27,319 nucleotides of DNA from a virus: IMG/VR virus record IMGVR_UViG_3300045243_000027, positions 1 to 27,319 of that record. One strand, 5' to 3'. The translations under genes and the position numbers were made by a program. The notes beneath the pieces are model-generated. The model did not search any database, was not told the origin of the DNA, and saw only the letters and a program-made list of their open reading frames with translations. Each line of letters starts with the position of its first letter. Within the stretch, counting starts at the first letter, position 1. Below, piece by piece: positions 1-15,348 of this stretch.

Positions 1-31
1 ACTAAGAAAGGCAACGGGGGCACGGGGAATA

Positions 32-544
32 ATGCTTGATATGCTAGAAAAGCCTCACCGCTCGGCGGATGAGGACAAGGGTTATTGCGACAAAGCGAAG
101 AACGGATCGGCACAGCTTCTTTCGCTGTTGAGAAAACATCACGCCGAGCTTGTGCAGAAGGAAGAACCAGAAAAGGCCGTTCCTGTAGTCCGCGAGCTTC
201 CACCGATGAAGCAACCGTGGTTCGGCGTATTCCCAGACGATATATCCGACCGCATCTTGATTGCGGATATCACCAAGGCTTGCGCTCGGCGTTTTAAAAT
301 CCCGCTGCATGATTTGCAATCGCACAGCAGGGTTGGCGGTCTCATCCGCGCGAGATTCATCATGTACTTTCTCGCTTGCGCCTTGTCGGGCCGCTCCTCG
401 GTCTACGTCGGCAGGAGGCTTGGTCGAGACCACGCGACGATTCTGCACGGAAAGAAGCTCGTCGAGAAATGGCGGGAGAAAGACACTTGCGTTGAAATGG
501 ATCTTCGGACCATCGCGGCTGCTGTAGGAGGCTCTCTCGGATGA
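32..544 (+). CDS. DnaA domain IV-like DNA-binding protein
   Basis: A 170-residue protein whose residues about 75-150 match the C-terminal DNA-binding domain (domain IV, Bac_DnaA_C) of the replication initiator DnaA. The diagnostic stretch GRDHATILHG (131-140) corresponds to the DnaA signature GRDHTTVxHA and is preceded by the expected helix RARFIMYFLACALSGRSS. There is no AAA+ ATPase domain, so it cannot be a full initiator. It probably binds DnaA-box-like DNA, either to recruit or interfere with host initiation or as a regulator; that role is inferred. The first 60 residues are charged and not recognised. A GGGGA run lies just before the ATG; an internal ATG at 41 is an alternative start. 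Frame 1 is open from the window edge to a TGA at 37-39, so the tail of an upstream gene may overlap this start. The stop overlaps the next start as ATGA. Confidence 0.85.
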   Translation: MLDMLEKPHRSADEDKGYCDKAKNGSAQLLSLLRKHHAELVQKEEPEKAVPVVRELPPMKQPWFGVFPDDISDRILIADITKACARRFKIPLHDLQSHSRVGGLIRARFIMYFLACALSGRSSVYVGRRLGRDHATILHGKKLVEKWREKDTCVEMDLRTIAAAVGGSLG

Positions 545-684
545 AACATTCCCCTCGATCCCTATTGAAGGCCAATAAGCGCGCCCTGAAAAGTGCTGAT
601 CCGCGATCCCGTGACCGTCTGCGCCATCGCGTCAAGGTTTTGGAGATCGTGATTGCGCTGCGGAAGAGGGGGCGCGCAGCATGA
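541..684 (+). CDS. small basic protein, unknown function
   Basis: A 47-codon ORF joined to both neighbours by ATGA overlaps (541-544 and 681-684), which is the main reason to believe it. The product is very rich in Arg and Lys (MKHSPRSLLKANKRALKSA at the start, a segment RSRDRLRHR in the middle, ending RKRGRAA) and would be strongly basic. This suggests nucleic-acid binding, but no family is recognised. It lies between the DnaA domain IV-like gene and the GapR-like gene and would be translated by coupling with them. It is too short for confident coding statistics. Confidence 0.55.
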   Translation: MKHSPRSLLKANKRALKSADPRSRDRLRHRVKVLEIVIALRKRGRAA

Positions 685-881
685 AAATCCGAAAATCCGT
701 TCCTACCGAAGGTCTAGCTGAAAAATACCTCACTGGTTCCTGGCGCTATGTCATGCCGGACTTTGACAGGCCGGATCACAGCATTATCGAGAGCACATTT
801 TGTAACAATCGCGTTCCCCCCAACCAAACCAAAGAGGAATGCGATGACGGAGCAGGGTCACAACAGCAACCAGCAGCTTAA
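681..881 (+). CDS. small hypothetical protein
   Basis: A 66-codon ORF starting at an ATGA overlap with the preceding small gene. Its 3' end overlaps the GapR-like gene by 38 bases. Residues 12-42 (GLAEKYLTGSWRYVMPDFDRP and on) look like ordinary protein, but the last 25 residues lie over the ribosome-binding site and start of the next gene and are of low complexity (Gln/Ala/Gly). No family is recognised. It is supported mainly by translational coupling. The long overlap with a confident gene is a reason for doubt. Confidence 0.4.
   Translation: MKIRKSVPTEGLAEKYLTGSWRYVMPDFDRPDHSIIESTFCNNRVPPNQTKEECDDGAGSQQQPAA
763..791 (+). promoter_or_regulatory. possible promoter upstream of the GapR-like gene
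   Basis: A perfect TTGACA at 763-768 is followed after 16 bases by TATCGA (785-790), a poor -10 element with only the first three bases matching consensus. It would give a leader of about 45 bases before the ATG at 844. It lies inside the small ORF at 681. One perfect hexamer is weak evidence by itself. Confidence 0.22.
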
Positions 882-1098
882 AAGCATTGTCGAGCGGATT
901 GAGCATGTTGAGGTCGAGATCAAGGATCTCCAGACCGGCCGCACGGAAATCTATGCCGAGGCAAAATCACACGGCTATGATGTAAAAGCCCTCAAAGCCG
1001 CCGTAAGCAGGCGCAAGGCCGATGCCAACAAGCGCGCCGAGCATGAGGCGCAGGTTGATCTTTACATGAACGCGCTTGCCTCTTTGGTACGCCCATGA
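844..1098 (+). CDS. gapR: GapR-like (DUF2312) DNA-binding protein
   Basis: An 84-residue protein of the GapR/DUF2312 family. The core (residues 13-80) shows the family pattern: a coiled-coil helix KSIVERIEHVEVEIKDL, then IYAEAKSHGYDVKALKAAVSRRK and a C-terminal helix ending VDLYMNALA. In Caulobacter, GapR binds AT-rich, overtwisted DNA ahead of replication forks and is needed for chromosome replication; it is close to 90 residues long, like this one. Phage copies are common in alphaproteobacterial phages. The start at 844 is chosen over the in-frame ATG at 748 because AGAGGAATGCG gives a good ribosome-binding site and because family homology begins about here. The stop overlaps the next gene by four bases. 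An inferred role is to organise phage DNA or assist phage replication, which suits its place among replication genes. Confidence 0.92.
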   Translation: MTEQGHNSNQQLKSIVERIEHVEVEIKDLQTGRTEIYAEAKSHGYDVKALKAAVSRRKADANKRAEHEAQVDLYMNALASLVRP

Positions 1099-1667
1099 GG
1101 CCGCGCTATAGCCGGTATAATGACCCCTACGGCGACGGGCTGGATGCCGATGGGTATGTAATCGAGCCGTCCGGTCGTAAGCCGTTCATTCACGGCTGCG
1201 AGGAGGACGTTGGCGACTTCCGGCCGATAAAGCTGGTGAATGCCATGCAGTCCGCGATCAATCGCATCAGAGTGATGATGGACATTGGAGGAAACTGCGA
1301 CAGCCCAATTGAGGTCCAGATTGGTGCGGCAATTCTCACCTTTTTTGAGCGCTCTGGGAATCCGTTGCGCCTCTGCAAGACGGTTGACCTTAGAAGCCTT
1401 CCGGATGAGCTTGTGCTGGTCCCTCAGTTTGCCTGGAGCTATTACCGCTCCGATTGGGCCATCCTAAATCCAGCGCGCCACGGCGCCTTGCTGATCGAAT
1501 GTGACGGCAAGGACTTCCATTCCTCTGCCGAACAGCGCGCCCACGATGCCGCGAAGGACGCCGCGGCGCTCGATCGCGGGTTTCTCACAATGCGTTTTTC
1601 GGGTTCCATCATCTTCCGTGACGCGGATGGATGCGCCCAGAAAATCCATGATGCGGTGCACGGGTGA
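1095..1667 (+). CDS. PD-(D/E)XK nuclease, DUF559/Vsr-like
   Basis: A 190-residue protein with a restriction-endonuclease fold signature of the DUF559/very-short-patch type. SPIE (70-73) supplies the helix glutamate, the SDW around D120 the first acidic residue, and ECDGKDFH (135-142) the E-x-D-G-K core with the downstream His typical of DUF559. A conserved helix with RAHDAAKDAALD-type spacing follows, then the strand LTMRFSGSIIF. The fold cleaves or nicks DNA in other members; whether this one acts in recombination, repair, host DNA degradation or exclusion is not visible. The N-terminal 60 residues are not recognised. The ATG overlaps the stop of the GapR-like gene, and its own stop overlaps a GTG start, so it is part of the same transcription unit. 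Confidence 0.8.
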   Translation: MRPRYSRYNDPYGDGLDADGYVIEPSGRKPFIHGCEEDVGDFRPIKLVNAMQSAINRIRVMMDIGGNCDSPIEVQIGAAILTFFERSGNPLRLCKTVDLRSLPDELVLVPQFAWSYYRSDWAILNPARHGALLIECDGKDFHSSAEQRAHDAAKDAAALDRGFLTMRFSGSIIFRDADGCAQKIHDAVHG

Positions 1668-2383
1668 GCGCAACGGGGGAATTGATCGCCGCGCTCATAG
1701 CGGGCGGGATGAATGCTGCTGATGCGGCAGGACTGGTTGCGCGCGCCGGCGTCGAAATGACGGGCGCTCTCACCAAGAAATCGTCCAATGCGGTACGTCA
1801 ACAGCGCTACCGCGACAGACACGCGAGCGTAACGAACCGTAACGAAACCGTAACGGAGCGTAACGCAGATAAACGTAACGAAACCGTAACAAACCGTAAC
1901 GAAACCGTAACGCGTAACGCTCCCTCTCTCTCTAAAGAAGATAAGAAAGAAAAGAAAAAAAGAGAGAGTGCAGAAAAGCGAGCGGCGCAATTGCCGGACG
2001 GATGGCGGCCCGACGAAAAGCACTGGGCCGCTTCGGCCGCGCGGCTCGGAAGCTCTGAACGCGCCGAGCGCGAGCTGACAAAATTCACCAACCACGCGCT
2101 TTCCAAGGGGCGTACGGCGAAAAATTGGAATGCTGCATGGGCGAATTGGGTTGAACGAGCAATCGACTGGGGCGGAAATGGGAACGCAATTAGCAATCAT
2201 CGAACAGATACCGCCGCCGGACGTGCGACGGCCCGCGAACTTGACCAAGTTGCCGCAATGGGCGGAGCAGCGTTGCGCTACTTGCAGGAACGAAAGTCAG
2301 CCGGGTCCGGACGGCCGTCACCGGATGGTGCCGGTGTTGCCGAAATCGTTGATTTTGGGGAAAGAGCAAAAAATGTTGGTTGA
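1664..2383 (+). CDS. putative phage replication protein with internal iterons
   Basis: A 239-codon ORF from a GTG that overlaps the previous stop (GTGA). Residues 40-55 (NAVRQQRYRDRHA) form a basic segment. Residues 56-84 are a repetitive NRNETVT tract encoded by the CGTAAC repeats annotated separately. A highly charged KEDKKEKKKRES linker is followed by a conserved-looking domain at about 108-168 (LPDGWRPDEKHW to WNAAWANWVERA), of the kind seen at the C-terminus of phage helicase-loader/replication proteins (lambda O/P or DUF1376-associated types). That family call is from memory and only moderately sure. The last 68 codons overlap the next gene in another frame, where third-position GC favours the other frame, so the true C-terminus may be little constrained. 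Confidence 0.7.
   Translation: MSATGELIAALIAGGMNAADAAGLVARAGVEMTGALTKKSSNAVRQQRYRDRHASVTNRNETVTERNADKRNETVTNRNETVTRNAPSLSKEDKKEKKKRESAEKRAAQLPDGWRPDEKHWAASAARLGSSERAERELTKFTNHALSKGRTAKNWNAAWANWVERAIDWGGNGNAISNHRTDTAAGRATARELDQVAAMGGAALRYLQERKSAGSGRPSPDGAGVAEIVDFGERAKNVG
1828..1919 (+). repeat. nine phased CGTAAC repeats (candidate origin iterons)
   Basis: CGTAAC begins at 1828, 1838, 1849, 1859, 1874, 1885, 1895, 1906 and 1913; eight of the nine read CGTAACG. The spacings are 10, 11, 10, 15, 11, 10, 11 and 7, so within two groups of four the copies recur every 10.5 bp (a 21-bp, seven-codon unit), placing them on one face of the helix. They lie in the middle of the putative replication gene, just before a purine-rich tract. 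This matches the layout of the lambda origin inside gene O. Confidence 0.75.
1926..1970 (+). other. purine/A-rich tract, candidate DNA-unwinding element
   Basis: Directly after the CGTAAC repeats the plus strand switches from a CT run (TCTCTCTCT) to an almost pure A/G run of about 35 bases (AAAGAAGATAAGAAAGAAAA and onwards to AGAGAGAG). Strand asymmetry and AT-richness beside iterons are the usual features of an origin melting region. In protein terms it encodes a Lys/Glu linker, so coding constraint alone does not explain the near absence of pyrimidines. Confidence 0.5.
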
Positions 2384-2813
2384 GCAGCATGTTTCGGCGC
2401 TTGGCGCTGTTCTTGCAATGACGCCGTACGAAGATATCCAGCATGGACAATTGACGCTCGCGACCGTCACCAAAATGACGATGGTGCTGCCGGGAAGGGA
2501 AGCTGGGGATCTTACAGGCGAGGCTAAGGGCGAAGCTTACATGGCGGCCTTGGAAGATGTGCCGAGTTGGGCCGTTCAAGAGGCTATGCGGAAATGGTAT
2601 CGGGCAGAATACGGGGCAAAACACGATTACAAGTGGCAGCCTGGCCCCGCGATCTTGCGCGAACTGGCATTGATCGAAACCTATCGCGTGATGGCCGTGC
2701 GGCGGAAGCTAAACGAGGTTTTGGCTGCCGAGCCACTTATTGAGTTTACGGATGAACAGCAAGAGTCCATGCGTTCGCGTATCTCGGAATATCTAAAAAT
2801 GCGGTCGGCGTAA
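2178..2813 (+). CDS. replication-region protein, unknown function
   Basis: An ORF of 211 codons if read from the ATG at 2178, overlapping the upstream gene by 206 bases. An ATG at 2374, preceded by GGGGAAAGAG, would give 146 codons and only a 10-base overlap. I prefer the longer form because codons in the overlap have clearly higher third-position GC in this frame, and because PPPDVRRPANLTKLPQW and VLPKSLILGKEQ read as continuous protein. The body (residues about 70-200) is mostly helical, with ALEDVPSWAVQEAMRKWYRAEYG and KWQPGPAILRELALIETYRV. No catalytic motif is seen. The position after a putative replication protein would suit a helicase loader or accessory factor, but that is context only. 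Confidence 0.65.
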   Translation: MGTQLAIIEQIPPPDVRRPANLTKLPQWAEQRCATCRNESQPGPDGRHRMVPVLPKSLILGKEQKMLVEQHVSALGAVLAMTPYEDIQHGQLTLATVTKMTMVLPGREAGDLTGEAKGEAYMAALEDVPSWAVQEAMRKWYRAEYGAKHDYKWQPGPAILRELALIETYRVMAVRRKLNEVLAAEPLIEFTDEQQESMRSRISEYLKMRSA

Positions 2814-2844
2814 AACTTCAATCAGGGGCAACCGGGGCAACGAA

Positions 2845-3390
2845 ATGAACGCATTGGCATCACGCAAGAAACTCAAGGGAATACCCGTGGAATACCGGCC
2901 CATTGAAGGGCCAACGGAAGAGCGCAAACGGCATTCAGGCGGGTTTTTCGAGATCGGGGGGGACAGCCAGGTCGGCCGCAAATACACGATGCAGGACTCT
3001 CCGCTGGACCGCATGCGGGCGCGAAACGCGATCGACCCGAAAGAATACTCGGCGCTTCGGAAATACGCCCATCATTTTTATCATGGGGGGCTACTTCCTT
3101 CGGTAGGCTCGGTCGATCTGAACCGGGTATTTGCTTCGGATCCCCTGAGTATGTCCGGCATGGCGAAATCCGAAGGTCAGGCGCACCATCGCCAACAGTA
3201 CCGAAAGGCGAGAGAGATTTTAGGCCATCGCCCCGGCATTGTGGTGGATAATGTTGTTTGCGCCGAGTGGGATTTGACGACGGCAGGGCACTCGATCGGC
3301 TATGCCAGCCCTTATCGAGCGCGCCAAGCGGCTTCCGAAATTTTGCGTGATGCCGGCTATCGCCTGGCTAGATTTTGGGGAATTGGCTGA
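2845..3390 (+). CDS. DUF6456-like DNA-binding protein, candidate late regulator
   Basis: A 181-residue protein. Residues 52-82 (SPLDRMRARNAIDPKEYSALR and on) and 107-178 (MAKSEGQAHHRQQYRKAREIL, then VVDNVVCAEWDLTTAGHSIGY, then RARQAASEILRDAGYRLARFW) resemble, from memory, the helical/HTH DUF6456-type domain of alphaproteobacteria: two helical blocks, a VVC-x-xW strand-like centre and a final helix ending RLARFW. It is the last regulator-like gene before an attenuator-like element and the late genes, the position of lambda Q or P22 gp23 antiterminators. A late-transcription role is inferred from position, not from homology. The ATG follows GGGGCAACGAA. The gene ends in a TGATG overlap with the HNH gene. 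Confidence 0.6.
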   Translation: MNALASRKKLKGIPVEYRPIEGPTEERKRHSGGFFEIGGDSQVGRKYTMQDSPLDRMRARNAIDPKEYSALRKYAHHFYHGGLLPSVGSVDLNRVFASDPLSMSGMAKSEGQAHHRQQYRKAREILGHRPGIVVDNVVCAEWDLTTAGHSIGYASPYRARQAASEILRDAGYRLARFWGIG

Positions 3391-3965
3391 TGCCTGTCGA
3401 ATTGCTGGATATTTCAATCAGCCGTCCGAAAGCTAAGGATCGCCCGAAGACGCATCCAGAACAGCGCCGTTTTGAAGATGGGGCGGTCGAGGTTGTTTTG
3501 CCTAATGGCGGGCGTTTGCGCCAAGTTCCTACCCTTTGTCTGACATGCGGCAGAGAAAAGATCGACCACATTACCGATGCAGGGAGCTTTAAGCGCTTTC
3601 ACTCCGGGTTATGCCCGCATTGTTTCAAGTTAGAGCAGGTCGCTCGCGAGCAGGCCCTCGCCCAAGAGAGAGCTGCGCGCATGTCTCTTGGCGAGACCGC
3701 TGCCCAGCGTCGGTACGTCGCGCAGATTTTGGCTACTCCGCTTTGGCGCGATCGGCTCGAAATCAAAAAAATATATGTGGAGGCAAAAAGACTTAGCGCT
3801 GAAACTGGAATCGATTATGAAGTTGATCATATCTATCCGATTCAAAGCGAATTCGCGTGCGGGCTGCACGTCCACCATAATCTGCGGATACTCGAAAAGG
3901 GTTTGAACAGAGCTAAGAAAAACATCTTTCCGCTATTCGATAGCCCGGCACTTAGGGATAGCTGA
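3390..3965 (+). CDS. HNH endonuclease with zinc-ribbon
   Basis: A 191-residue protein starting at the TGATG overlap. Two CxxC pairs (C50/C53 and C75/C78) form a probable zinc ribbon. The C-terminal half holds the HNH core: YEVDHIYPI (D146-H147), then HHNLRIL with N164, and LNRAKKN with N173. HNH proteins nick or cut DNA at a beta-beta-alpha metal centre. Many phages carry one beside the terminase genes, where it can be needed for DNA packaging. This one lies one small intergenic region upstream of the small terminase, so a packaging role is as likely as a homing one. From about 3760 the gene looks AT-richer than its neighbours. A longer form from 3375 is possible but would overlap the preceding gene more. 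Confidence 0.85.
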   Translation: MPVELLDISISRPKAKDRPKTHPEQRRFEDGAVEVVLPNGGRLRQVPTLCLTCGREKIDHITDAGSFKRFHSGLCPHCFKLEQVAREQALAQERAARMSLGETAAQRRYVAQILATPLWRDRLEIKKIYVEAKRLSAETGIDYEVDHIYPIQSEFACGLHVHHNLRILEKGLNRAKKNIFPLFDSPALRDS

Positions 3966-3983
3966 AAATAGTTCTTGCAAAAA

Positions 3984-4027
3984 GGGCGCGGGTCACACCA
4001 AATCAGACAGCATCGTGATTTGCGCCC
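3984..4027 (+). promoter_or_regulatory. 13-bp hairpin overlapping the terminator (candidate attenuator)
   Basis: GGGCGCGGGTCAC (3984-3996) can pair with GTGATTTGCGCCC (4015-4027) in RNA: six outer GC pairs, three G-U wobbles, then TCAC/GTGA, closing an 18-base loop. The last three bases of the 3' arm (4025-4027) are also the first bases of the terminator stem, so the two hairpins compete. It lies in the only sizeable non-coding stretch (3966-4066) at the early/late boundary. Confidence 0.5.
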
Positions 4028-4052
4028 GCCCGGTTCGTCCTGGCGGGTTTTT
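4025..4052 (+). terminator. intrinsic terminator before the late genes
   Basis: CCCGCC (4025-4030) pairs with GGCGGG (4042-4047), with an inner GG/CC pairing (4032-4033 with 4039-4040), followed by a T run from 4048. This is a standard Rho-independent terminator. It lies between the HNH gene and the packaging genes. The bases after it (TTTTTCATTGGGG) recur nearly unchanged after the terminator at 9591. Confidence 0.75.
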
Positions 4053-4066
4053 CATTGGGGCATCCC

Positions 4067-4231
4067 ATGGGTGATGTAATTGCCGGAATTGATTTCAGAT
4101 CCGGCTATGCGAAGAAATCCTGGCAGCACGACGTAGCCGACGAAAGGCGCAAAGAGGCGGATAGGCTTGCCAAGTCTGCCGATACTGCGCCGAGTGAGTA
4201 TTGCGCTGCACCAGACGATGAACCGGCCTAA
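4067..4231 (+). CDS. small hypothetical protein
   Basis: A 54-codon ORF directly after the terminator, with GGGG six bases before its ATG as ribosome-binding site. The product begins MGDVIAGIDFRSGYAKKSWQ and has a charged helix DVADERRKEADRLAKSAD. No domain is recognised. It would be the first gene of the late transcript. It overlaps the start of the next ORF by 14 bases. Confidence 0.5.
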   Translation: MGDVIAGIDFRSGYAKKSWQHDVADERRKEADRLAKSADTAPSEYCAAPDDEPA

Positions 4232-4763
4232 TTCATTCAGCCCGCTTTTGTTTCGGCTCTACGCCAGCGATCTATCCGAGGCCGTCTCCAAAATGTCCCA
4301 AGAGCGGATGCACACCAGGATCATCGGCTCTGACAAGTTCGTCACAATGGACGGCAAAACGGTAATGGTAAGCCAAATGGCTACGGATGATGAAATAGCT
4401 GCGGCCCTCCATCGGGGCAACGCTGCGAGTGGCAGTCAGAATCAGGCAACGAATAATTACTCGACTTACGCGGGCCAATTGGCTGCGGCCACTCCGTTGC
4501 CGCCCGCACCGACGATTACGCCCGTGGCTAAACCTGCCGCTCAGGGCTCATTCGCTGCAAGCCTCAAGGCCATCGTAGACGAAGCTAAGGCAGGCATCGA
4601 ACAGGCAAAGGCGGACGGCTTGGCGCAAGTCAGAGATGCTGTTGGTGATCTCAGCAAGGCTAAGGAGGCCACTCTTCGCGTGACCGGGAATATGGCCAGC
4701 ACGGTCAAATCTCAGGCTGCCGACATCATGGCCGAGCTTGGTCAGATATCAAACGATCTGTAA
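4218..4763 (+). CDS. hypothetical protein preceding the terminase
   Basis: A 181-codon ORF from the ATG at 4218. Other in-frame ATGs at 4293 and 4308 are possible starts, and no site has a strong ribosome-binding sequence; the frame is open upstream to 4167. The N-terminal part (HTRIIGSDKFVTMDGKTVMV and on) is globular, the middle (about 90-115) is Pro/Ala-rich, and the last 65 residues (ASLKAIVDEAKAGIEQAKADG to ELGQISNDL) are a long amphipathic helix with few bulky residues. No family is recognised. The stop overlaps the small terminase start as TAATG, so the two are translationally coupled. Confidence 0.7.
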   Translation: MNRPNSFSPLLFRLYASDLSEAVSKMSQERMHTRIIGSDKFVTMDGKTVMVSQMATDDEIAAALHRGNAASGSQNQATNNYSTYAGQLAAATPLPPAPTITPVAKPAAQGSFAASLKAIVDEAKAGIEQAKADGLAQVRDAVGDLSKAKEATLRVTGNMASTVKSQAADIMAELGQISNDL

Positions 4764-5206
4764 TGCCAGCTCTTTCAAATGCGCGACATGAGAAGTTTGC
4801 GCAGGAACTATCGAAGGGTAAGACGGCGACAGATGCCTATGTCCTTGCTGGATATAAGGCAAATGACGGCAATGCGGCGACCCTTAAAGGCAATCAAAGG
4901 ATTTTAGATAGGGTCGCAGAGCTTCAGAACGCAGCTTCCATGCGGGTTGAAGTGACCGTTGCGAGCCTTCTTCAGGAAGCGGCCGAAATTCAGCAAGCCG
5001 CGAAGGATGCCGGGCAGCATTCGGCCGCTATAGCAGCGCTGACAGCCAAGGCGAAACTAGCCGGCCTTTGGGTCGATAAGGCAGAGAACACAAATCGTAA
5101 TGTTGATCCAGCCCGAGTCACAGACGCGGAACTTGCCGCAGTTGTCCAGGCTGACAGCGGCGAAAGAGCTACAGCGGCGCCGGCTGATCCGTCGAAACTT
5201 AACTGA
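4763..5206 (+). CDS. terS: terminase small subunit
   Basis: A 147-residue protein. The N-terminal 45 residues (ARHEKFAQELSKGKTATDAYV, LAGYKANDGNAATLKGNQRIL) are the helix-turn-helix of Terminase_2-type small subunits, with the usual KFAQEL...G..AT.AY..AGY pattern and the conserved Asn/Ala of the second helix. A helical oligomerisation segment at 50-110 follows. It would recognise the packaging site on phage DNA and deliver it to the large subunit. It lies directly before the large subunit, which overlaps its 3' end in another frame. Confidence 0.9.
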   Translation: MPALSNARHEKFAQELSKGKTATDAYVLAGYKANDGNAATLKGNQRILDRVAELQNAASMRVEVTVASLLQEAAEIQQAAKDAGQHSAAIAALTAKAKLAGLWVDKAENTNRNVDPARVTDAELAAVVQADSGERATAAPADPSKLN

Positions 5207-6590
5207 ATGGTGCCTGTCGGCCGGTTATGTTCCGGCTGCGCACCACAAGCTGATCAACGCGAAACTGGAATCCGTTACCGCCGGACATAGCGACCGGGTG
5301 ATGATCTTTGCCCCTCCCGGTTCGGCTAAATCGACGTATGCTAGCATTTTGCATTCTCCATGGCATTTTGCGGCTCATCCTACTCATTGCGTTATTGCGG
5401 CTAGTCATACGGCTGAACTGGCCGAGAAGTGGGGCCGGCGCGTCCGCAACCTCGTCGCGGAGCATTCGGCGGTTTTAGGAGTTTCCCTTGCGCCTGATAG
5501 TCAAGCTGCCGGGCGATGGGAGACTGATCATGGAGGCGAATATTTTGCAGCCGGCGTCGGCGGGGCCATTGCTGGACGACGAGCTGACCTGGTTGTCATC
5601 GACGATCCAATCCGTAGCCGAGAGGATGCTGACTCTGAGACCGTCCGTGACAAAATCTGGGACTGGTACAAATCCGACTTATATACTCGACTTAAGCCGG
5701 GCGGGCGGATCGTATTAATCCAGACTCGTTGGCATGAAGACGACTTGGCCGGTCGTTTGCTGGCCGATATGGCGGCCGGCGGAGACCAGTGGGACGTTAT
5801 TTCACTGCCTGCGCTAGCCGAGGCCAACGATCCGCTTGGACGCGCTGTAGGCGCTCCGCTGTGGCCGGAATGGGAAGATGAAGCCAACCTTGAGCGCAAG
5901 CGGCGCGCGGTTGGTGCAAGAGACTGGACGGCGCTTTACCAGCAGCGGCCGGCTCCTGAAGATGGCGACTATTTCAAGCTGGAATGGTTGAAACCGTATG
6001 ACATCGCGCCAGCGCTCAATACGATGCGGGTCTATGGCGGATCTGATTACGCTGTCACCGCTGACGGAGGCGACTTCACCGTTCATGTCGTCGTCGGGAT
6101 TGATCCCGAAAACCGGATGTTCCTGCTCGACCTCTGGCGCAAGCAGGCTTCGTCCGATGAATGGATTGAGGCGTTTTGTGATCTGGTTATCAAGTGGAAG
6201 CCGCTGGGCTGGGCCGAGGAACAAGGCCAAATCCGATCTGGCATTGGTCCGTTTCTTGATAAACGTCAGCGCGATCGAAAGGCTTATGTCTATCGCGAAC
6301 AATTTCCTACCCGAGGGGACAAGGCTGTGCGCGCCCAGTCCATTCGTGGAAGGATGGCGCTTGAAGGACTGCACGTTCCTCATGCCGCTAAGTGGTATGG
6401 CAATCTCCGCTCAGAGCTACTGTCATTTCCCGCGGGGAAGCACGACGACCAGGTTGACGCGCTGGGGCTCGTTGGTCAGTTGATGGCTCGTATGACTGCC
6501 GGAACGAAACCGGCCGAACCTGAGAAGTCCAAGAATCAATCAGGCTACAAATCGACTGCGGTGCAGTCGGATAGCTTCAAAGTTTACTAA
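5100..6590 (+). CDS. terL: terminase large subunit
   Basis: The packaging motor: ATPase plus nuclease. From the ATG at 5100 (496 residues) the Walker A-type loop is APPGSAKST (71-79), Walker B LVVIDDP (164-170), and the coupling motif region QTRWHEDDLAGRLL (208-221). The C-terminal RNase H-like nuclease has its first acidic residue in GGSDYAVTADGGDFT (D316) and the last cluster in KHDDQVDALG (D449/D450/D453). The start is uncertain: 5100 overlaps the small subunit by 107 bases and lacks a clear ribosome-binding site, but the residues RLTAAKELQRRRLIRRNLTEW look like family sequence, so most of this overlap must be coding. A TTG near 5133-5142 is an alternative. Full length for the family. Confidence 0.95.
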   Translation: MLIQPESQTRNLPQLSRLTAAKELQRRRLIRRNLTEWCLSAGYVPAAHHKLINAKLESVTAGHSDRVMIFAPPGSAKSTYASILHSPWHFAAHPTHCVIAASHTAELAEKWGRRVRNLVAEHSAVLGVSLAPDSQAAGRWETDHGGEYFAAGVGGAIAGRRADLVVIDDPIRSREDADSETVRDKIWDWYKSDLYTRLKPGGRIVLIQTRWHEDDLAGRLLADMAAGGDQWDVISLPALAEANDPLGRAVGAPLWPEWEDEANLERKRRAVGARDWTALYQQRPAPEDGDYFKLEWLKPYDIAPALNTMRVYGGSDYAVTADGGDFTVHVVVGIDPENRMFLLDLWRKQASSDEWIEAFCDLVIKWKPLGWAEEQGQIRSGIGPFLDKRQRDRKAYVYREQFPTRGDKAVRAQSIRGRMALEGLHVPHAAKWYGNLRSELLSFPAGKHDDQVDALGLVGQLMARMTAGTKPAEPEKSKNQSGYKSTAVQSDSFKVY

Positions 6591-6600
6591 GGTATTTCCA

Positions 6601-8601
6601 TTGAACCCAGCCCTCGCTACCTCAGCGCCCGAACCAATGACGGGCGGCAGCGGAGCCACGATCGAGGACGATCAGGGGCAATACCTGCCGATTGATCGGC
6701 TGAAGCGGCAGTATTACGATTATCTCGGCGCGAAAGATCAAGAGGTCGAGGAAGCCCGCGAGGCCCGGCATTACTACCACTGCGACCAGTGGACATCCGA
6801 CGAAATCGCTGTTCTGCGCCGCCGCAAGCAGCCCGTCGTTACATCGAACCGGATCGAGCGCAAGATCAACGCCGTCGTTGGCATTGTCGAGAAGCTGCGC
6901 CAAGACCCGAAAGCCTATGCCCGCACGCCGGACCATGAGCAGGGCGCAGACCTTGCCTCAGCCGTCATGCGGTATTGCCTCGATACGAACGACTGGAAAA
7001 GCAAATCAACCCGTAATGCCCGCCTTGGCGCTGTTGATGGTATCGCCGGTATCGAATTCGATCTTGAGCCCGGCGATCATGGCGACCCTGATCTCGCGAT
7101 GCATATCGTCTATTGCGACACGTTCTTTTATGACCCGCGCTCGTTTGACGAAGGTTTCACCGATGCCCGTTACATGGGCATTGCGAAATGGATCGACGTA
7201 GACCAGGCCAAGGAGCTATTGCCGAACAAGGCGGCCGAAATCGACGGCCTAATGGAAAGCGGTTCCGATATCACGTCATCGGCCGATCAGGACAGGGAAC
7301 GGGTCTGGGTTAACACCAGCTTGAAGCGCCTGCGATTGGTGGATCACTGGTACATCTGCAAAGGCAAATGGTGCTGGACGCTCTACATCGGCAACACTGT
7401 GATGATGCAGGGCGTGTCGCCGTTCCATGACAACAAGGGCAAGACGTTTCCGCGCTTTCTGATGTTCTCGGCAAATGTGGATCATGACGGCGATCGATAC
7501 GGGTTTATTCGCAACCTGAAGTCAGCCCAAGACGAAATCAACATGCGCCGGTCGAAGGCGCTGCATCTGCTCAATAGCAAGCTCATGATGAGCGAGAAGG
7601 GCGCGGTTGATGATATCGAAGTGTCCCGTCGCGAGCGGGCGAGGGCAGACGGTTGGATTGAGATAAATCCGGGCCTAAAGGTCGAGTCGATCGATACGAA
7701 CAATGATTTCAAGGGCCAACTGGAAATGCTCCAGGAAGCCAAAACCGAGATCGAGAACTTCGGTCCTAACCCGGCCTTGATCGGGCAGGGGTTGGAGGAT
7801 TCCAGCGGACGCGCGATTGCATTGCTTCAACAGGCCGGGATGGCTGAGCTTGGCCCATATCTGAGCGCGTTCAAGAACTGGAAAATACGGGTTTACCGGG
7901 CCATCTGGAACATTATCACCGAGCATTGGAAGGCCGAGCGCTGGATCAGGGTCACGGACGACCAGAACGTGGCGCAGTTCTTCCAGATCAATAAGAAAGC
8001 GACCGATCAATACGGCCAACCCGCGATTATCAATGCCATTGGATCGATGGACGTTGATTTCATCATCGACGAGGGGCCGGATACCGTCAACATGCAGGGC
8101 GATGCAGCGGCAACCCTGCAGGCGCTGGGACCGCAGTTCGCGCAGAACTTCCCCGAGATTGCGCTAGAGCTTTCTCCGCTTGAGGTCCGGGTTAAAACCC
8201 AGATGCTCAAGAAAATCCAGGCCAAGCAGAGCCAACCGCCGCCGGTCGATCCCAAGGTTGCCGCGCAAGGCCAGTTGAAGCAGATGGAATTGCAGGCCGA
8301 TGGTCAAAAGGCCATGGCAGACAATAGCCTTGAATGGCGCAAGGCGCAGTTGCAGGCGCTGACCCAGATCGAGGTTGCCAGGATCACGGCCAAGACCGAT
8401 CAGGACAGCGGGACGCTCGCTGCGAAGCTGGAAGGCATCCTCGGCTTTGCGCAGATGGCCCATGAGCAGAATCAGAACGCTCAGGATAGGGCGCACGAGG
8501 CCGTCCAGAACGACGCTGACCGGCGCTCACAACAGGTTTTAGCGGCGCGCCAGCAAGCCGCAGATGCACAGCAGGCAGCCGCCCAACCGCAGACTGCATA
8601 G
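6601..8601 (+). CDS. portal protein, P22 type
   Basis: A 666-residue protein from a TTG with AAGG eight bases upstream (6589-6592); an ATG at 6637 is the alternative. Residues about 25-500 match the P22 portal family: an EAREARHYYHCDQWT helix, VTSNRIERKINAVVGIVEK, the YCDTFFYDPRSF segment and the NPALIGQGLEDSSGRAIALLQ helix. The C-terminal 130 residues are Gln/Ala-rich and helical (KQMELQADGQKAMADNSLEW and on), like the P22 portal barrel/crown extension. Twelve copies would form the ring at the capsid vertex through which DNA enters and leaves. It directly follows the large terminase, as in P22. Confidence 0.93.
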   Translation: MNPALATSAPEPMTGGSGATIEDDQGQYLPIDRLKRQYYDYLGAKDQEVEEAREARHYYHCDQWTSDEIAVLRRRKQPVVTSNRIERKINAVVGIVEKLRQDPKAYARTPDHEQGADLASAVMRYCLDTNDWKSKSTRNARLGAVDGIAGIEFDLEPGDHGDPDLAMHIVYCDTFFYDPRSFDEGFTDARYMGIAKWIDVDQAKELLPNKAAEIDGLMESGSDITSSADQDRERVWVNTSLKRLRLVDHWYICKGKWCWTLYIGNTVMMQGVSPFHDNKGKTFPRFLMFSANVDHDGDRYGFIRNLKSAQDEINMRRSKALHLLNSKLMMSEKGAVDDIEVSRRERARADGWIEINPGLKVESIDTNNDFKGQLEMLQEAKTEIENFGPNPALIGQGLEDSSGRAIALLQQAGMAELGPYLSAFKNWKIRVYRAIWNIITEHWKAERWIRVTDDQNVAQFFQINKKATDQYGQPAIINAIGSMDVDFIIDEGPDTVNMQGDAAATLQALGPQFAQNFPEIALELSPLEVRVKTQMLKKIQAKQSQPPPVDPKVAAQGQLKQMELQADGQKAMADNSLEWRKAQLQALTQIEVARITAKTDQDSGTLAAKLEGILGFAQMAHEQNQNAQDRAHEAVQNDADRRSQQVLAARQQAADAQQAAAQPQTA

Positions 8602-8698
8602 AGATCGTAAGACCGGGACGAAACACCGGACAGGACTACCCGCACGCCCGAGCGACAGAGGGCATACGTGATCGCACGAAACGCGAAAGGGTGAGTAA
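8602..8698 (+). promoter_or_regulatory. portal-scaffold leader with weak hairpins
   Basis: A 97-base non-coding gap, unusual among these tightly packed genes. It can form CCGG/CCGG (8613-8616 with 8626-8629) and GCCC/GGGC (8646-8649 with 8660-8663), the latter extendable by CAC/GTG across a bulge. ACGAAAC occurs twice (8618, 8676). It ends in AAAGGGTGAG, the scaffold ribosome-binding site. It may be a translational control leader for scaffold; the pairing is weak. Confidence 0.3.
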
Positions 8699-9565
8699 AT
8701 GGCTATTGAAGCACTTGAAGGGATTAGCGACCAAGAGTTGTTCGACCAAGCCAATGCGGACGAAGCGCCGGCTGACGAAGCCGTTGTGGAGCCTGCTGAT
8801 GCGCCGGTAGAACAACCCGAGCAATCACGCGATGAACAAGGCAGGTTCGCCGGTAAGCCGGAGAATGAGCCTGAAGCACCAGCGGCAACCGATCCGCCGG
8901 CAAAGACGCCGGTTGACGATAACGCCGCAATGGTTCCGTCATGGCGTGTTCGCGAGATCAACGAGGAAAAGCGAGCGCTGGCCGATAGGGTCGCGGCTTT
9001 TGAAGCTGAAAAGCTGAATTGGCAGCGGCAACCGGCACGCGCAGAACCCGCTCCCGAGGTCAAGGTTCCTGAAGAACCCGATCCTCTGCTTGATCCCAAG
9101 GGGTACAAGGATTTCGTGCTCAATCAAACGCGCGAGATCATCCTTAGCGAACGCCGGGAAGCTAGTCTCCAGAACGCTCACAAGGTTTACAAGGAAGAGT
9201 TTACCGAAGCTTACGCGGCTGCACAGAAAGGCGTCGATCCCGCTTTGCGGGCTCTCATGCAGCAGTCGCGCGATCCCGGTGAAACCCTCATCCAGTGGCA
9301 CCGTGAGCAGAAAACAAGGGCCGAAGTAGGCAACGACCTCACCGCATTCCGTGAACGCGAGCAGGAACGCTTGCTTTCCGATCCAGCCTTCCTAGCGAAG
9401 GCCATCGAGAAAGCCCGCGGCGCTGCTCAACCAACCCAACCCGGCACAAGGCCGGCTGTTTCACTTCCGCCATCCTTGACCCGAGCGACTAATGCATCTG
9501 CGGACGGTTCCGCCGATGACAACGACGTTTCGGACGAAGGGCTGTGGCGACACGCCAACGCTTAA
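8699..9565 (+). CDS. capsid scaffolding protein
   Basis: A 288-residue, very acidic and Ala/Pro-rich protein between portal and coat genes, where scaffold (P22 gp8) is expected. Residues 1-75 are disordered and acidic and contain RDEQGRFAGK, a motif common in phage scaffold N-termini. A helical section begins SWRVREINEEKRALADRVAA at about 81, with PDPLLDPKGYKDFVLNQTREI downstream. The tail is low complexity. It would direct coat assembly and then leave or be degraded. Start set by AAAGGGTGAG before the ATG. Confidence 0.85.
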   Translation: MAIEALEGISDQELFDQANADEAPADEAVVEPADAPVEQPEQSRDEQGRFAGKPENEPEAPAATDPPAKTPVDDNAAMVPSWRVREINEEKRALADRVAAFEAEKLNWQRQPARAEPAPEVKVPEEPDPLLDPKGYKDFVLNQTREIILSERREASLQNAHKVYKEEFTEAYAAAQKGVDPALRALMQQSRDPGETLIQWHREQKTRAEVGNDLTAFREREQERLLSDPAFLAKAIEKARGAAQPTQPGTRPAVSLPPSLTRATNASADGSADDNDVSDEGLWRHANA

Positions 9566-9590
9566 AACCAGCCGCGCTCCTGATGACAGA

Positions 9591-9613
9591 CCCGCCTTGA
9601 TGGCGGGTTTTTT
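9591..9613 (+). terminator. hairpin terminator between scaffold and coat
   Basis: CCCGCC (9591-9596), loop TTGAT, GGCGGG (9602-9607), then six T. Only 34 bases separate it from the coat ATG, and most of these are the ribosome-binding region, so no promoter fits after it. It is either read through or serves as an RNA-processing/stability hairpin that sets the coat-to-scaffold ratio. Confidence 0.75.
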
Positions 9614-9647
9614 ATTGGGCTGACGGCTTCAGAAAGGAAAAGCCGTC

Positions 9648-10790
9648 ATGGCTCTCACCACCATCCAAACCAACAATAAGGTCATCAAGTTTACCAAGCA
9701 GGTGAACCGTGAATGGGTTCGCGAAAACCTGTTCGCCCCGTACATGGGCGAGGATATCACCGCCATCATCCGCAAGCGCATGGAGCCTGTATCCGGCGGC
9801 GAGCAGATGAACATTCCGCTTGTGGCGCGTCTTGGCGCCCAGGCTATCGGCTCCGGCGCCTTGAACGGCAATGAAGAGTCGATCGACAACTATGGCATGC
9901 GCGTCTGGATCGACTGGGCGCGTAATGCGGTCAAGACCAACAAGGCCGAAAAGCACAAGGACTCAACCGCTATCTTCGGCGTTGCGCGTCCCCTTCTGTC
10001 GGATTGGCTGAAGGAACTTAACCGCGACGAAATCATCCAGGCTTTCTATGCGCTGCCTTCGGAATCCGCGCCGGCCGGTTTGGGTTCGGCTAATGGACAA
10101 CGGGTTAACGGTATCCTGTTTGATGCCGCGACCGCTGCCCAGCGTAATACCTGGGTGACCGACAACGCCGATCGTGTCGTGTTCGGTCAGTTGAATTCGA
10201 ACTACAGCACGACCTTTGCAACCGCAACGGCCACGCTGGATTCGACCAACGACATCGCCAACGCCGCGAATATGAAGTTCCTCAAGCGTGTGGCGCGCGC
10301 GGCCAACCCGAAAATTCGACCGTTCAAGGTCAAGGACGGCCGTGAATATTTCGTGGCGTTCCACGGCTCGCGGACGTTCCGCGATCTGAAGGCCTCGCTT
10401 GACACCATCAACCAGACCACGCGGCCTCGTGAGGGTGACGGTTTTAACAAAAACCCGATCTTCCAGGACGGCGATCAGATGTATGACGGCGTCATCCATC
10501 GCGAAGTTCCCGAGATCGATACGCTGGCTCCGACCTTCTACGCGACGGCCGGCGCGTCGGGCACCACGCCGGTTCGTCCGGTCTGGCTGTGTGGTCAGTC
10601 GGCAATGGCGATGGCTTACGGCCAGATGGCCAAGCCAACACAACTCGACAACACCGACTATCAGTTCAACCAGGGCGTTGGCATCGAGGCGGCTTACGGG
10701 CTGTCCAAGATGTTCAAGAAAACCACGGGCGGAAACCTCAAGGAATGGGGAATCTGCACGGGCTTCTACGCCGCTGTCGCTGACGCGTAA
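9648..10790 (+). CDS. major capsid protein, N4-gp56/Phage_capsid_3 type
   Basis: A 380-residue coat protein. It shows the features of the N4-gp56 / Phage_capsid_3 (DUF4043) group of HK97-fold coats: N-terminal REWVRENLFAPYMGEDITAII, GGEQMNIPLVARL, the helix YGMRVWIDWARNAVKTNKAEK, a SDWLKELNRDEIIQAF segment and the C-terminal AMAYGQMAKPTQLDNTDYQFN followed by IEAAYGLSKMFKK. There is no N-terminal propeptide. The ribosome-binding site AGAAAGGAAAAG is strong, as expected of the most abundant virion protein. The gene lies after scaffold in the P22 order, although I place the coat in the N4-gp56-like group rather than with P22 gp5. Confidence 0.92.
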   Translation: MALTTIQTNNKVIKFTKQVNREWVRENLFAPYMGEDITAIIRKRMEPVSGGEQMNIPLVARLGAQAIGSGALNGNEESIDNYGMRVWIDWARNAVKTNKAEKHKDSTAIFGVARPLLSDWLKELNRDEIIQAFYALPSESAPAGLGSANGQRVNGILFDAATAAQRNTWVTDNADRVVFGQLNSNYSTTFATATATLDSTNDIANAANMKFLKRVARAANPKIRPFKVKDGREYFVAFHGSRTFRDLKASLDTINQTTRPREGDGFNKNPIFQDGDQMYDGVIHREVPEIDTLAPTFYATAGASGTTPVRPVWLCGQSAMAMAYGQMAKPTQLDNTDYQFNQGVGIEAAYGLSKMFKKTTGGNLKEWGICTGFYAAVADA

Positions 10791-10817
10791 TAATCCAGAG
10801 AGAAAAGGAACATCATC

Positions 10818-11213
10818 ATGGGTACGGGTATTCCGGCTCGCTCTAGCGGCGACCAGACTCTTAACTATCTTCGCGCTCCGATCGATTTCAGCCTCGGTTA
10901 TACCGGGGTTAAGACGGTCGGGACGCTTCCTGCGGGCTGCGTTGTTTTGCGCACCTACGTCATCGTGACGACCGCATTTAACGCGGGTTCCACCAACACG
11001 ATGAAGATCGGCACGGTCGCGAGCGATGCCAGCTTCGGCACCAGCATTGCTCTCGGCACCGCGGGCGTCATCACGGGCGGTACGGCTCTTGCTACGGCCA
11101 CGACCGCAACGCCTGCGGCTGATACTTCGGTTGTTGCCACGTCGGTTTCGACCGGCACGGCTTCGACTGCGGGCGCCGGCATTGTCGTGGTTGAATATCT
11201 GCCGGTATCGTAA
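10818..11213 (+). CDS. putative capsid decoration protein
   Basis: A 131-residue protein made almost wholly of beta-type sequence: TVGTLPAGCVVLRTYVIVTTA, FNAGSTNTMKIGT, ASFGTSIALGTAGV and a final strand GIVVVEYLPV. This pattern and the position one gene after the coat match small head decoration or head-surface proteins that follow N4-gp56-like coats. The exact role is inferred. A ribosome-binding site AAAAGGAA precedes the ATG. The stop is followed by the competing hairpins at 11220-11263. Confidence 0.65.
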   Translation: MGTGIPARSSGDQTLNYLRAPIDFSLGYTGVKTVGTLPAGCVVLRTYVIVTTAFNAGSTNTMKIGTVASDASFGTSIALGTAGVITGGTALATATTATPAADTSVVATSVSTGTASTAGAGIVVVEYLPVS

Positions 11214-11219
11214 CTGATA

Positions 11220-11263
11220 AAACAGGCGGGGCCTAAAAATCCCGCCTGGTTCTCTGCCTGTTT
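11220..11263 (+). promoter_or_regulatory. two mutually exclusive 8-bp hairpins before a Shine-Dalgarno site
   Basis: CAGGCGGG (11223-11230) pairs perfectly with CCCGCCTG (11241-11248). AAACAGGC (11220-11227) pairs perfectly with GCCTGTTT (11256-11263). The 5' arms share bases, so only one can form. The second structure ends one base before a perfect AGGAGG (11265-11269 region) that serves the next gene. The first is not followed by a T run, so it is not a standard terminator. Confidence 0.5.
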
Positions 11264-11275
11264 AGGAGGCTTTTC

Positions 11276-11563
11276 ATGATCGGGACGGACGGCGAGACGC
11301 TCGCCGGGGACATCAAGACCTATACCACATCCGGGCGTGGAATGAATGTGGATGAAATCTCCGACCTGGCGCTGCGCAAGCTCCTGCACGTCGCGGACAC
11401 CACCTCGCCGGCATTGGCCCAGCAGGCCGACTTGTTCAAAGCGCAGATCAAGATCCTTCTGATGCGTTACATGGAAATGGCGATTAAGTCCGACCGCACC
11501 ACGCTTTACAACCAATTGAAGCCCGGCAATCCAGACGTGGCCGATATTATCTTGAGGATCTGA
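11276..11563 (+). CDS. conserved-looking small virion-module protein
   Basis: A 95-residue protein with a very strong AGGAGG ribosome-binding site. Residues 23-95 are helical: MNVDEISDLALRKLLHVADT, SPALAQQADLFKAQIKILLMR, and YMEMAIKSDRTTLYNQL. I associate such short helical proteins with the capsid genes of related phages but can assign no function. The stop overlaps the next ATG (TGATG). Confidence 0.6.
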   Translation: MIGTDGETLAGDIKTYTTSGRGMNVDEISDLALRKLLHVADTTSPALAQQADLFKAQIKILLMRYMEMAIKSDRTTLYNQLKPGNPDVADIILRI

Positions 11564-11706
11564 TGTCTCCTTGGGCGACCCAGTTCATCGTTGACCTGGC
11601 CGGTATCGGGTTCGGCCTCTATCTCTTTTCTCCATATGCCATCGCAGGAGCGATCGGCCTAGCCGTCGCGGTGAAAGCATTCCGCGCCAAACTTAAGGAA
11701 CAATAA
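11563..11706 (+). CDS. small membrane protein
   Basis: A 47-codon ORF with a TGATG overlap with the previous gene, ending directly before the next ATG (TAAATG). Residues 7-36 are one long hydrophobic stretch (FIVDLAGIGFGLYLFSPYAI, then AGAIGLAVAV), followed by a basic tail FRAKLKEQ. It would span the inner membrane once or as a hairpin. A membrane protein inside a virion gene block is unusual. The function is unknown. Confidence 0.6.
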   Translation: MSPWATQFIVDLAGIGFGLYLFSPYAIAGAIGLAVAVKAFRAKLKEQ

Positions 11707-12351
11707 ATGGCGATCAGCACAAGCATGGCAGGCAGCTTCAAACAGCAGCTATTTTCCGGCCAGCACATCATGACGACAACTGGCTTTACGATCACGGCCA
11801 GTTCGTCGAGTTCGACGGCCTATACCTCGGCATCGAGCGTCGCCGGGTTGACGCTCGGCATGTCGTTCACTGGCACCAATGTCGGCGGGTCGTCGATTGT
11901 CACGGTGATTGGTTCGGCCACCACGTTCACCTCCTCGGCAGCCTCGACCGGCACCATTTCCGGCGGAACGCTGACGTTCACGAACCCCATGGCGGCCTCC
12001 TACAAGCTGGCGCTGTATACCTCCTCGGCCACGCTGGACGGCACCACGGCTACCTACAGCGCGACCAATGAGGCGTCTGGAACGGGTTACTCGGCGGGGG
12101 GATCGGCGCTGACACTCTCGGCATCCATGCCCAGCCTGACCTCGACCACGGCGTTCATGGATTTTGCCGATCTGGTGTTTTCGACCGCGACCATTACGGC
12201 GCGGGGCTGCGAAATATATAACAGCTATGCGGGACTGAACCGCACGGTTTCGGTACATGATTTTGGCGCCGACAAGACCGCAACGGCGGGGGATTTTACC
12301 ATCATTTTCCCCACGCCCGACTCGTCAAATGCAATTCTGAGGTTAGCATAA
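11707..12351 (+). CDS. virion structural protein with inserted beta domain
   Basis: A 214-residue Ser/Thr/Gly-rich protein. The C-terminal two-thirds (residues about 95-214) has a pattern I recognise from many phage structural proteins: YKLALYTSSATLDGTTATY, then TNEASGTGY, FMDFADLVFSTATITARGCEI, VSVHDFGADK and a final FPTPDSSNAILRL. Between the first 20 residues and this core lies a segment (about 25-92, AGLTLGMSFTGTNVGGSSIV and on) that resembles a common modular beta unit. No catalytic residues are evident. It is part of the block between coat and gp4-like genes, and probably head or tail surface. Confidence 0.7.
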   Translation: MAISTSMAGSFKQQLFSGQHIMTTTGFTITASSSSSTAYTSASSVAGLTLGMSFTGTNVGGSSIVTVIGSATTFTSSAASTGTISGGTLTFTNPMAASYKLALYTSSATLDGTTATYSATNEASGTGYSAGGSALTLSASMPSLTSTTAFMDFADLVFSTATITARGCEIYNSYAGLNRTVSVHDFGADKTATAGDFTIIFPTPDSSNAILRLA

Positions 12352-12639
12352 ATGGCGCGCGATTATATCAAGATCGACCCGACAAATACGGGTTTGCAGG
12401 CATCCTTGCTGCGTTCGTATGTTTTCCAGTTGCGCGAAGCTCTTGAAACGGGCGAACGCGTTCTAGCTATCATGAGCCACAACAATGATGGAACAGTGTT
12501 CACGGACGTCGAAACCCTGTTCGGCCTCCCGACCGGCAAGGGCCAGACCGTGTTTAACTTGGTGAACGGCTCTATCGGATCGATGCAGGGCACGTTCCAG
12601 GTTGCGGACGCCAAAAACATCACCGAACAGGTCGGCTAA
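12352..12639 (+). CDS. small hypothetical virion-module protein
   Basis: A 95-residue protein directly abutting the previous stop. It has a helix LLRSYVFQLREALETGERVL followed by AIMSHNNDGTVFTDVETLFGL and GKGQTVFNLVNGSIGSM, and resembles small conserved phage proteins found next to the preceding family. The function is not known; the context is virion assembly. Confidence 0.65.
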   Translation: MARDYIKIDPTNTGLQASLLRSYVFQLREALETGERVLAIMSHNNDGTVFTDVETLFGLPTGKGQTVFNLVNGSIGSMQGTFQVADAKNITEQVG

Positions 12640-12664
12640 CACAGCATACTCTGAAGGGTGACGC

Positions 12665-14320: not shown

Positions 14321-14332
14321 TTGGGAGTATTT

Positions 14333-15291: not shown

Positions 15292-15310
15292 CCATAACCT
15301 CCCAAACTCA

Positions 15311-15340
15311 AGAGCGTCCTTCGGGGCGCTCTTTTTCTTT
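15311..15340 (+). terminator. strong intrinsic terminator with TTCG loop
   Basis: AGAGCGTCC (15311-15319), TTCG tetraloop, GGGCGCTCT (15324-15332): nine pairs with one G-U, then TTTTCTTT. It is the strongest hairpin in the window. The next ATG is only nine bases after it (15349), so no promoter lies between. Confidence 0.85.
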
Positions 15341-15348
15341 GAGGCCAC

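Follow-up and report, generated by a model that had tools for sequence, protein, structure and literature searches.

Background

To our knowledge, the antiterminators of phage type that are known in structural detail (Q, Q21 and AlpA) are all gammaproteobacterial, and late control in the phages of Alphaproteobacteria seems to have been little described. A limited literature search returned no paper combining antitermination, a late promoter, alphaproteobacteria and phage, nor any report of the phage site-plus-regulator module described here; the DUF6456 papers that it found concern GTAs.

In the relevant passages of PMC11150451, GafZ of C. crescentus is described as an antiterminator with a palindromic element between the -10 and the -35 of a GTA promoter, and mutation of this element abolishes both GafZ enrichment and GTA production. 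The same passages match GafY to the N-terminal and GafZ to the C-terminal part of R. capsulatus GafA, and state that the binding elements of GafA are not mapped to the nucleotide level. According to passages of PMC9638019, relatives of GafA are annotated as DUF6456 and the C-terminal part of GafA binds a fragment of the GTA promoter that includes its -10, -35 and start site. Q21 (passages of PMC6606751) and AlpA (passages of PMC9371919) each load at a promoter element and let the polymerase pass a downstream terminator. For phiLM21, the passages of PMC12429752 that name an annotated antiterminator mention no binding site.

Here we present a computational analysis of a virus record of 27,319 bases, referred to as the window, which follows up a prediction made from its letters. 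The original prediction held that a 13-bp RNA hairpin and an intrinsic terminator between the replication and packaging genes exclude one another, and that either a Q-type antiterminator or an attenuator would act there.

Results

Gene organization of the window

All genes of the window that were taken as likely run on the plus strand. Those that frame the locus, together with the further terminators of the late operon, are as follows.

32-544, plus strand: DnaA-type HTH / DnaA C-terminal-domain protein, early region
748-1098, plus strand: GapR-domain protein
Before 2845, plus strand: early genes for an MTES_1575 endonuclease and then a DnaT-domain protein
2845-3390, plus strand: regulator gene, putative late regulator of 181 aa, divergent relative of DUF6456 (GafZ / GafA C-terminal family)
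3390-3965, plus strand: HNH / endonuclease VII-like gene (phrog_1035, E=2.3e-6), between the regulator gene and the candidate promoter
4067-4231, plus strand: first late gene, with its ATG 14 nt past the T tract of the terminator
4763-6590, plus strand: terminase small and large subunit genes, late packaging (phrog_51, E=1.8e-12; phrog_38, E=3.2e-110)
Downstream of terminase, plus strand: late genes for a P22-like portal, a capsid protein and a GH25 endolysin
9590-9608, plus strand: late-operon terminator between genes
15310-15333, plus strand: late-operon terminator between genes
23996-24011, plus strand: late-operon terminator between genes
26463-26480, plus strand: terminator-like hairpin inside the late operon, 5' of the endolysin gene, not returned by a stricter scan

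The locus had been placed in the only real intergenic space between the early and late genes, and in our gene list 3966-4066 (101 nt) is indeed the largest intergenic gap before 8602. The regulator-like gene noted upstream of it likewise proved to be a relative of the GafZ/GafA-C (DUF6456) family. The HNH gene that separates the regulator gene from the promoter element had escaped mention; used as a query for relatives, its protein gave none that could be confirmed. Homologues of the first late gene occupy the same place in L068, L089 and L070, at 97%, 94% and 72% identity, respectively. Elsewhere in the window, a minus-facing terminator-like hairpin (-14.9 kcal/mol) lies in a late intergenic gap at 11223-11248, although no likely gene was taken on the minus strand, and CGTAACGAAACC-type repeats at 1830-1915 in the DnaT-domain gene encode a repetitive NRNETVT stretch.

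The regulator and its relatives

Against PF20057 (DUF6456) the window regulator obtained E=0.017 and 15.6 bits, which is below the 26.3-bit cut-off for membership; its relatives L002 (29.2 bits) and L029 (27.0 bits) pass that cut-off. Matches at E<=0.1 were found for 16 of the 24 members of the regulator family (best 3.4e-6), and the family profile matched a profile of six relatives, including L002 and L029, with E=4.3e-8. Judged by these comparisons, the window regulator is a divergent relative of DUF6456, and we do not call it a member. PF20057 matches also occurred in three of 14 control genomes, Caulobacter vibrioides among them, and exceeded the cut-off in one of the three.

The predicted model of the regulator has a mean pLDDT of 73, and its C-terminal part, mostly near or above 90, is predicted to be sigma-region-4-like. 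Foldseek searches with this model gave no significant match (best E 2.3; Q21 entries at E 3.2 and 4.7). In the VIA-align ranking, sigma region 4 came first (Z 7.2), with Q21 in third place (Z 6.5, rmsd 3.3 over 98 residues) and the AlpA complex 7xya in 16th (Z 5.6, rmsd 7.7); at Z below 8, all of these are only suggestive and may reflect no more than a common arrangement.

A tblastn search of named phages with the window regulator gave no match; a cousin from L029 found one, in Bradyrhizobium phage ppBeUSDA76-2, whose protein is 50.6% identical to that of L029 and whose layout is similar. Overlapping the end of its regulator gene are TTGCC, 7 nt and CAAATCAC, followed by a terminator (GCCCGCCCGG...GGCGGGTTTT) 48 nt past the TTG and, further on, by terminase. 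No TGATTTGCG was seen at this site. Two more intergenic terminators (7139-7156 and 19738-19757) lie in the late region of this phage (L206). At the DNA level, relatives of the window among named phages came down to one record, matching in terminase only.

A conserved promoter-like element ahead of a terminator

Typical sites in the relatives consist of TTGAC, a spacer containing CAAATCAC, then CAAATCAG, about 8 nt, TGATTTGCG and a terminator, with TTG 24 nt 5' of CAAATCAG in nearly all of them. The corresponding parts of the window are listed below; conservation refers to alignment A2, which holds 23 of 31 type I sites and omits L138, L140, L142, L143, L145, L150, L163 and L196.

3975-3980, plus strand: -35-like box TTGCAA (TTGAC in most aligned relatives), the TTG invariant in the 23 aligned sites
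3989-3996, plus strand: position of the spacer half-site CAAATCAC, degenerate in the window (CGGGTCAC), within the 5' arm of the 13-bp hairpin
3998-4003 or 3999-4004, plus strand: candidate -10, CCAAAT or CAAATC
3999-4006, plus strand: half-site CAAATCAG over the candidate -10, most columns invariant or nearly so in the 23 sites
4016-4024, plus strand: inverted half-site TGATTTGCG, at about +5 to +14 of the presumed transcript, most columns invariant or nearly so in the 23 sites
4024-4052, plus strand: intrinsic terminator directly 5' of the first late gene, with stem-loop 4024-4048 and T tract 4048-4052

The inner inverted repeat, CAAATCA (3999-4005) and TGATTTG (4016-4022), is better conserved than the 13-bp hairpin within which it had gone unmentioned. 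Among 43 loci found on viral contigs through TerL relatives, several have an upstream terminator resembling GCCCGCC...GGCGGGT-TTTT, and in some of these CAAATCA...TGATTTG, rather than the 13-bp helix, stands directly 5' of it. A scan for the inverted repeat plus CCCGCC returned 35 loci, and a tighter motif 37 viral and four genome loci. A pattern scan built on the arms of the 13-bp hairpin was discarded: it returned 18 viral loci (L045-L062), none with the site at up to 4 mismatches, L057 matching it with 5.

Of 43 relatives' sites, 30 have a terminator no further than 160 nt from the -35 box, as against 6 of 150 control stretches, and 29 of these 30 terminators start 46-53 nt past the box. 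The terminator finder reported none within 160 nt in the other 13 sites; the terminator of L126 is weak and further from the box. At the place where a terminator is expected, L151 and L164 have GGGAATTATATACTT in common, as if by insertion or exchange.

By conservation and place, the locus thus appears to contain what would be looked for in a Q-type system, a conserved element in a late promoter ahead of a terminator. The promoter activity of the window itself is uncertain, since its -10 is poor, its -35 is TTGCAA and its spacer half-site is degenerate, with 5 mismatches to the composite. The conserved TGATTTGCG in the first transcribed bases is not clearly -10-like, and no sigma-dependent pause element was identified. 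A simple scan listed neither the terminator at 4024-4052, which its rule of a loop of at most 8 excludes, nor any promoter at this place; its totals over 1-20000 were at shuffle level (24 terminator-like hits against 22.3 and eight promoter-like hits against 9.7).

The 13-bp hairpin

The pairings that had been proposed can indeed be drawn. Positions 3984-3996 (GGGCGCGGGTCAC) pair with 4015-4027 (GTGATTTGCGCCC) through 13 bp that include three G-U pairs (-20.7 kcal/mol when folded alone), the terminator hairpin at 4024-4048 (-16.4 kcal/mol) is followed by its T tract, and CCC at 4025-4027 is common to both structures. At full length only one of them can form, as stated; the exclusion is weak, however, as in the minimum free energy fold of 3960-4066 the terminator remains complete and stacks on 9 bp of the 13-bp hairpin. 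In the shorter stretch 3984-4052 the full hairpin (-30.3 kcal/mol) is ahead of a forced terminator (-26.8 kcal/mol) by 3.5 kcal/mol. The folding stability of 3960-4066 reaches z = -1.2 only. Arms of 13 bp, with G-U allowed and loops of 3-30, occur twice in the window against 2.0 +/- 2.0 in 30 dinucleotide shuffles; since the count matches the shuffle mean, the hairpin is not above chance. The two structures could compete in principle, and the number of such arms is unremarkable.

Comparison of the relatives did not bear out the covariation that a functional helix should leave. Across the alignment, 66.9% of cells are paired against 65.2% in shuffles, 33 of 500 shuffles reaching the observed value, and the covariation score was reached by 61 of 500. 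The helix does pair better than slid versions of itself (17.8-46.5% paired), owing to AAATCAC / GTGATTT, its conserved part. Of the 23 aligned sites only that of the window has all 13 pairs, the other 22 having 6-11. The three G-U pairs are A-U in the relatives, because AAATCAC there is the conserved half-site. L144 and L197 retain 10 of the 13 pairs and carry GGGCGC in the 5' arm, so this arm is not wholly window-specific. An Rfam search gave no match at gathering thresholds. On the chance count, the pair counts and the near relatives, the hairpin was rejected as the functional unit, and we regard it as probably incidental.

Treated as an RNA helix, the inner palindrome has 95.7% of cells paired and zero double changes, a pattern that would suit a DNA site equally and proves neither the RNA nor the DNA reading. 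In L037 (the contig of L126) and L007 (the contig of L158), about 500 nt and an apparent gene separate the site from the terminator, an arrangement that speaks for two independent modules rather than a single RNA switch. A transcript from the promoter itself would moreover lack the 5' arm, because the arm sits between the -35 and the -10.

The nearest relatives by regulator, L124 and L125, encode a 99% identical protein and lack the HNH gene. Their alignment to the window breaks off at 3393 and resumes at 3950/3951, with 88-93% identity on the long matching stretches flanking that gene, and their version of the site, TTGCAAAAGGGCGGCAAATCAC, lacks the inner and inverted repeats. The window equals L129 between 3993 and about 4050. 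The window spacer therefore looks mosaic, with an apparent junction at about 3988-3992 inside the promoter, L124/L125-like to the left and L129-like to the right, and the 5' arm GGGCGCGGGTCAC would then stem from the junction. An older spacer variant, shared with L144 and L197, could also account for this arm.

Linkage of the site to the regulator family

The motif was read from L002-L097 and tested afterwards. Scoring was confined to 39 of the 61 motif-found loci (L063-L123), since 22 had more than 4 mismatches to the consensus; among these 22, L072, L081 and L091 do have regulator relatives. In seven of the 39 the upstream sequence was too short. Where it extended to at least 700 nt, a regulator homologue was found upstream in 19 of 19 loci with TTG at 24 +/- 1 nt, and in none of 13 loci without TTG. 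Four matches came from the scan of the genome collection: L099, a Rhodospirillaceae MAG, has both TTG and regulator, and L098, L100 and L101 have neither.

The reverse comparison started from the proteins, taking the best 80 of 89 regulator relatives; these include close copies (72 after a k-mer filter), and the counts use the 80. In the 1.2 kb downstream, 30 of 80 loci have a type I site, defined by at most 5 of 22 mismatches. None of 75 has one upstream, and the 3 of 80 found on the reverse strand reflect the palindromic nature of the site. The composite TTGAC-N8/9-CAAATCAC (up to 1 mismatch) occurred within 600 nt downstream in 33 of the 80 viral loci, and in none of the controls (0/80 reverse strand, 0/72 upstream). 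As 23 of the 80 loci were on contigs already seen while the motif was read, the other 57 were counted apart, and 16 of them have the composite with up to 1 mismatch. The distance from regulator to site varies from about 30 bp to more than 500 bp and the site persists.

The 47 loci that lack the strict composite comprise 25 loci of one clade and 22 others. In a tree of the 80 proteins and that of the window (midpoint-rooted FastTree, no support values), these 25 form clade B, none of them having clade A-type sites; another 17 loci that have no labelled site are spread over the rest of the tree. A different spacer element, TTGAC-N4-GGGYCGTTTTGG (up to 2 mismatches), read by eye from L156, L160 and L192 and then tested on all 25, was present in 16 of the 25 and absent from the 55 other loci and from 22 upstream stretches. 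Terminators lie within 260 nt of 14 of 17 clade B sites, a count made without control stretches, and terminase small subunits were found downstream in two of four clade B loci sampled, with six proteins scanned. Site sequence thus changes together with regulator clade, as would be expected of a site that the regulator recognizes. Two sites, L118:4928 and one on the reverse strand of L121, have a clade B-like spacer (GGGCGTTTTGGG) together with a clade A-like repeat (CAAATCCG...TGATTTGCG), and are possibly intermediate between the two types.

Discussion

Comparison with described systems

The likeness to GafZ and its element, as described in passages of PMC11150451, extends to a related family, a predicted sigma-like helix-turn-helix, packaging genes as the putative target, a terminator downstream and possibly an inverted-repeat element at the promoter (-35 to -10). 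A GafZ-type element may have its counterpart here in the spacer element and in the inverted repeats of the 23 aligned sites, but these repeats span the -10 and reach into the transcribed region. The CcGTA element GCGCCCG-CTGGCGC is also unlike the window-type element, the terminator here is mostly about 50 nt past the -35 box whereas in those passages that of GafZ follows the first gene, and the setting is a phage rather than a domesticated element. There is no adjacent gafY; the DnaA C-terminal-domain gene at 32-544 lies about 2.3 kb upstream of the regulator, and its protein, which resembles the DnaA-like half of GafA / GafY, is a possible partner of the regulator. With GafA of Rhodobacter capsulatus, whose C-terminal region is the part common to DUF6456-type proteins, the difference is the fusion to a DnaA-like N-terminal domain (passages of PMC9638019).

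The present locus also resembles the Q21 system, for which passages of PMC6606751 describe direct repeats in the late promoter as subsites of the antiterminator, and a terminator before the late genes; the sigma-region-4-like DNA-binding fold may be a further likeness (the Z of 6.5 being against a predicted model). No sequence link was found, the repeats described for its element (QBE) are TGAGCA, and the present site differs in having a third, inverted half-site and no identified pause element. AlpA of Pseudomonas aeruginosa likewise has an element (ABE) between -10 and -35 and an intrinsic terminator downstream; in the passages of PMC9371919, however, this element is GGGACG, one protein binds and cell-lysis genes are controlled, and the structural match of 7xya to our model is weak.

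Proposed mechanism and alternatives

We consider that 3975-4052 is probably a phage late promoter combined with an antiterminator loading site and a terminator to be overcome, in a phage whose host, judging from its relatives, would be an alphaproteobacterium. Transcription would start near 4011, after a spacer of 17-18 bp from TTGCAA at 3975-3980. Without the regulator, an RNA of about 42 nt from 4011 would end at 4048-4052, and early transcripts would likewise end there. The GafZ-like regulator (2845-3390) would bind the repeated half-sites of the spacer, the -10 and the start of the transcribed region, and join RNA polymerase at the promoter; the polymerase would then pass the terminators at 4024, 9590, 15310, 23996 and 26463, and the late genes would be transcribed. 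As the ATG at 4067 is only 14 nt past the T tract, which leaves no room for another promoter, the mRNA of this first late gene has to get past the terminator. Such an arrangement would need processive antitermination, and the regulator is the obvious candidate for it. Against this reading count the poor -10 and the degenerate spacer half-site of the window, a Pfam score below the cut-off, the lack of a significant Foldseek match, the 47 of 80 loci that miss the strict composite, the 13 of 43 sites with no terminator in range, and L124 and L125, whose site lacks the repeats beside a 99% identical regulator.

The idea of a Q-type antiterminator site is largely supported by these data, given a GafZ-related gene upstream, a conserved spacer site, a terminator and a late gene. 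It could still be that the regulator is a plain activator acting at 3975-4004, the terminator being a leaky insulator that closes the early operon and late mRNA arising by partial read-through. The poor -10 fits a need for activation, and GafA is described in passages of PMC9638019 as an activator that contacts the omega subunit of RNA polymerase. Terminators in 30 of 43 sites and further ones in the late operon make little sense without antitermination, however, and GafZ, with its site similarly placed, has been shown to antiterminate (passages of PMC11150451); we think simple activation rather unlikely, though not negligible.

We give considerably less credence to the palindrome being an operator for another protein, such as an early repressor, with the linkage reflecting early-late position only. 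Because gene and site are neighbours in a conserved order, linkage alone is no proof of recognition; this explanation is nevertheless quite improbable in view of a spacer element that changes with regulator clade and a site that is kept at such varied distances from the regulator gene. The attenuator of two exclusive hairpins, in which transcripts of the early genes would choose between the 13-bp helix and the terminator by sensing a ligand or protein, is not supported by the comparison. The overlap is real, both structures are similarly stable in 3984-4052 and two of 22 relatives (L144 and L197) hold most of the pairs. Against this stand the lack of covariation above shuffles, the chance frequency of such arms, a full helix in one of 23 sites, the apparent mosaic junction in the 5' arm and the Rfam result, and we regard this reading as very improbable. 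Loading of a GafZ-like antiterminator at a late promoter is the reading that we prefer.

Conclusions

On a broader scale, we give even weight for and against the proposal that DUF6456/GafZ-like proteins are a widespread Q-like lineage of late antiterminators in Alphaproteobacteria phages, with at least two clades that differ in the promoter element they use, one clade reading a site of three repeats that covers the spacer, the -10 and the first transcribed bases; GTA control by GafA/GafZ would then be a phage late switch retained on domestication. The module of site and regulator would correspond, on the phage side, to the GafZ system of GTAs, and it provides two regulator clades with different DNA elements. 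A promoter-terminator cassette of about 80 bp could be used to test where GTA control came from and how it works.
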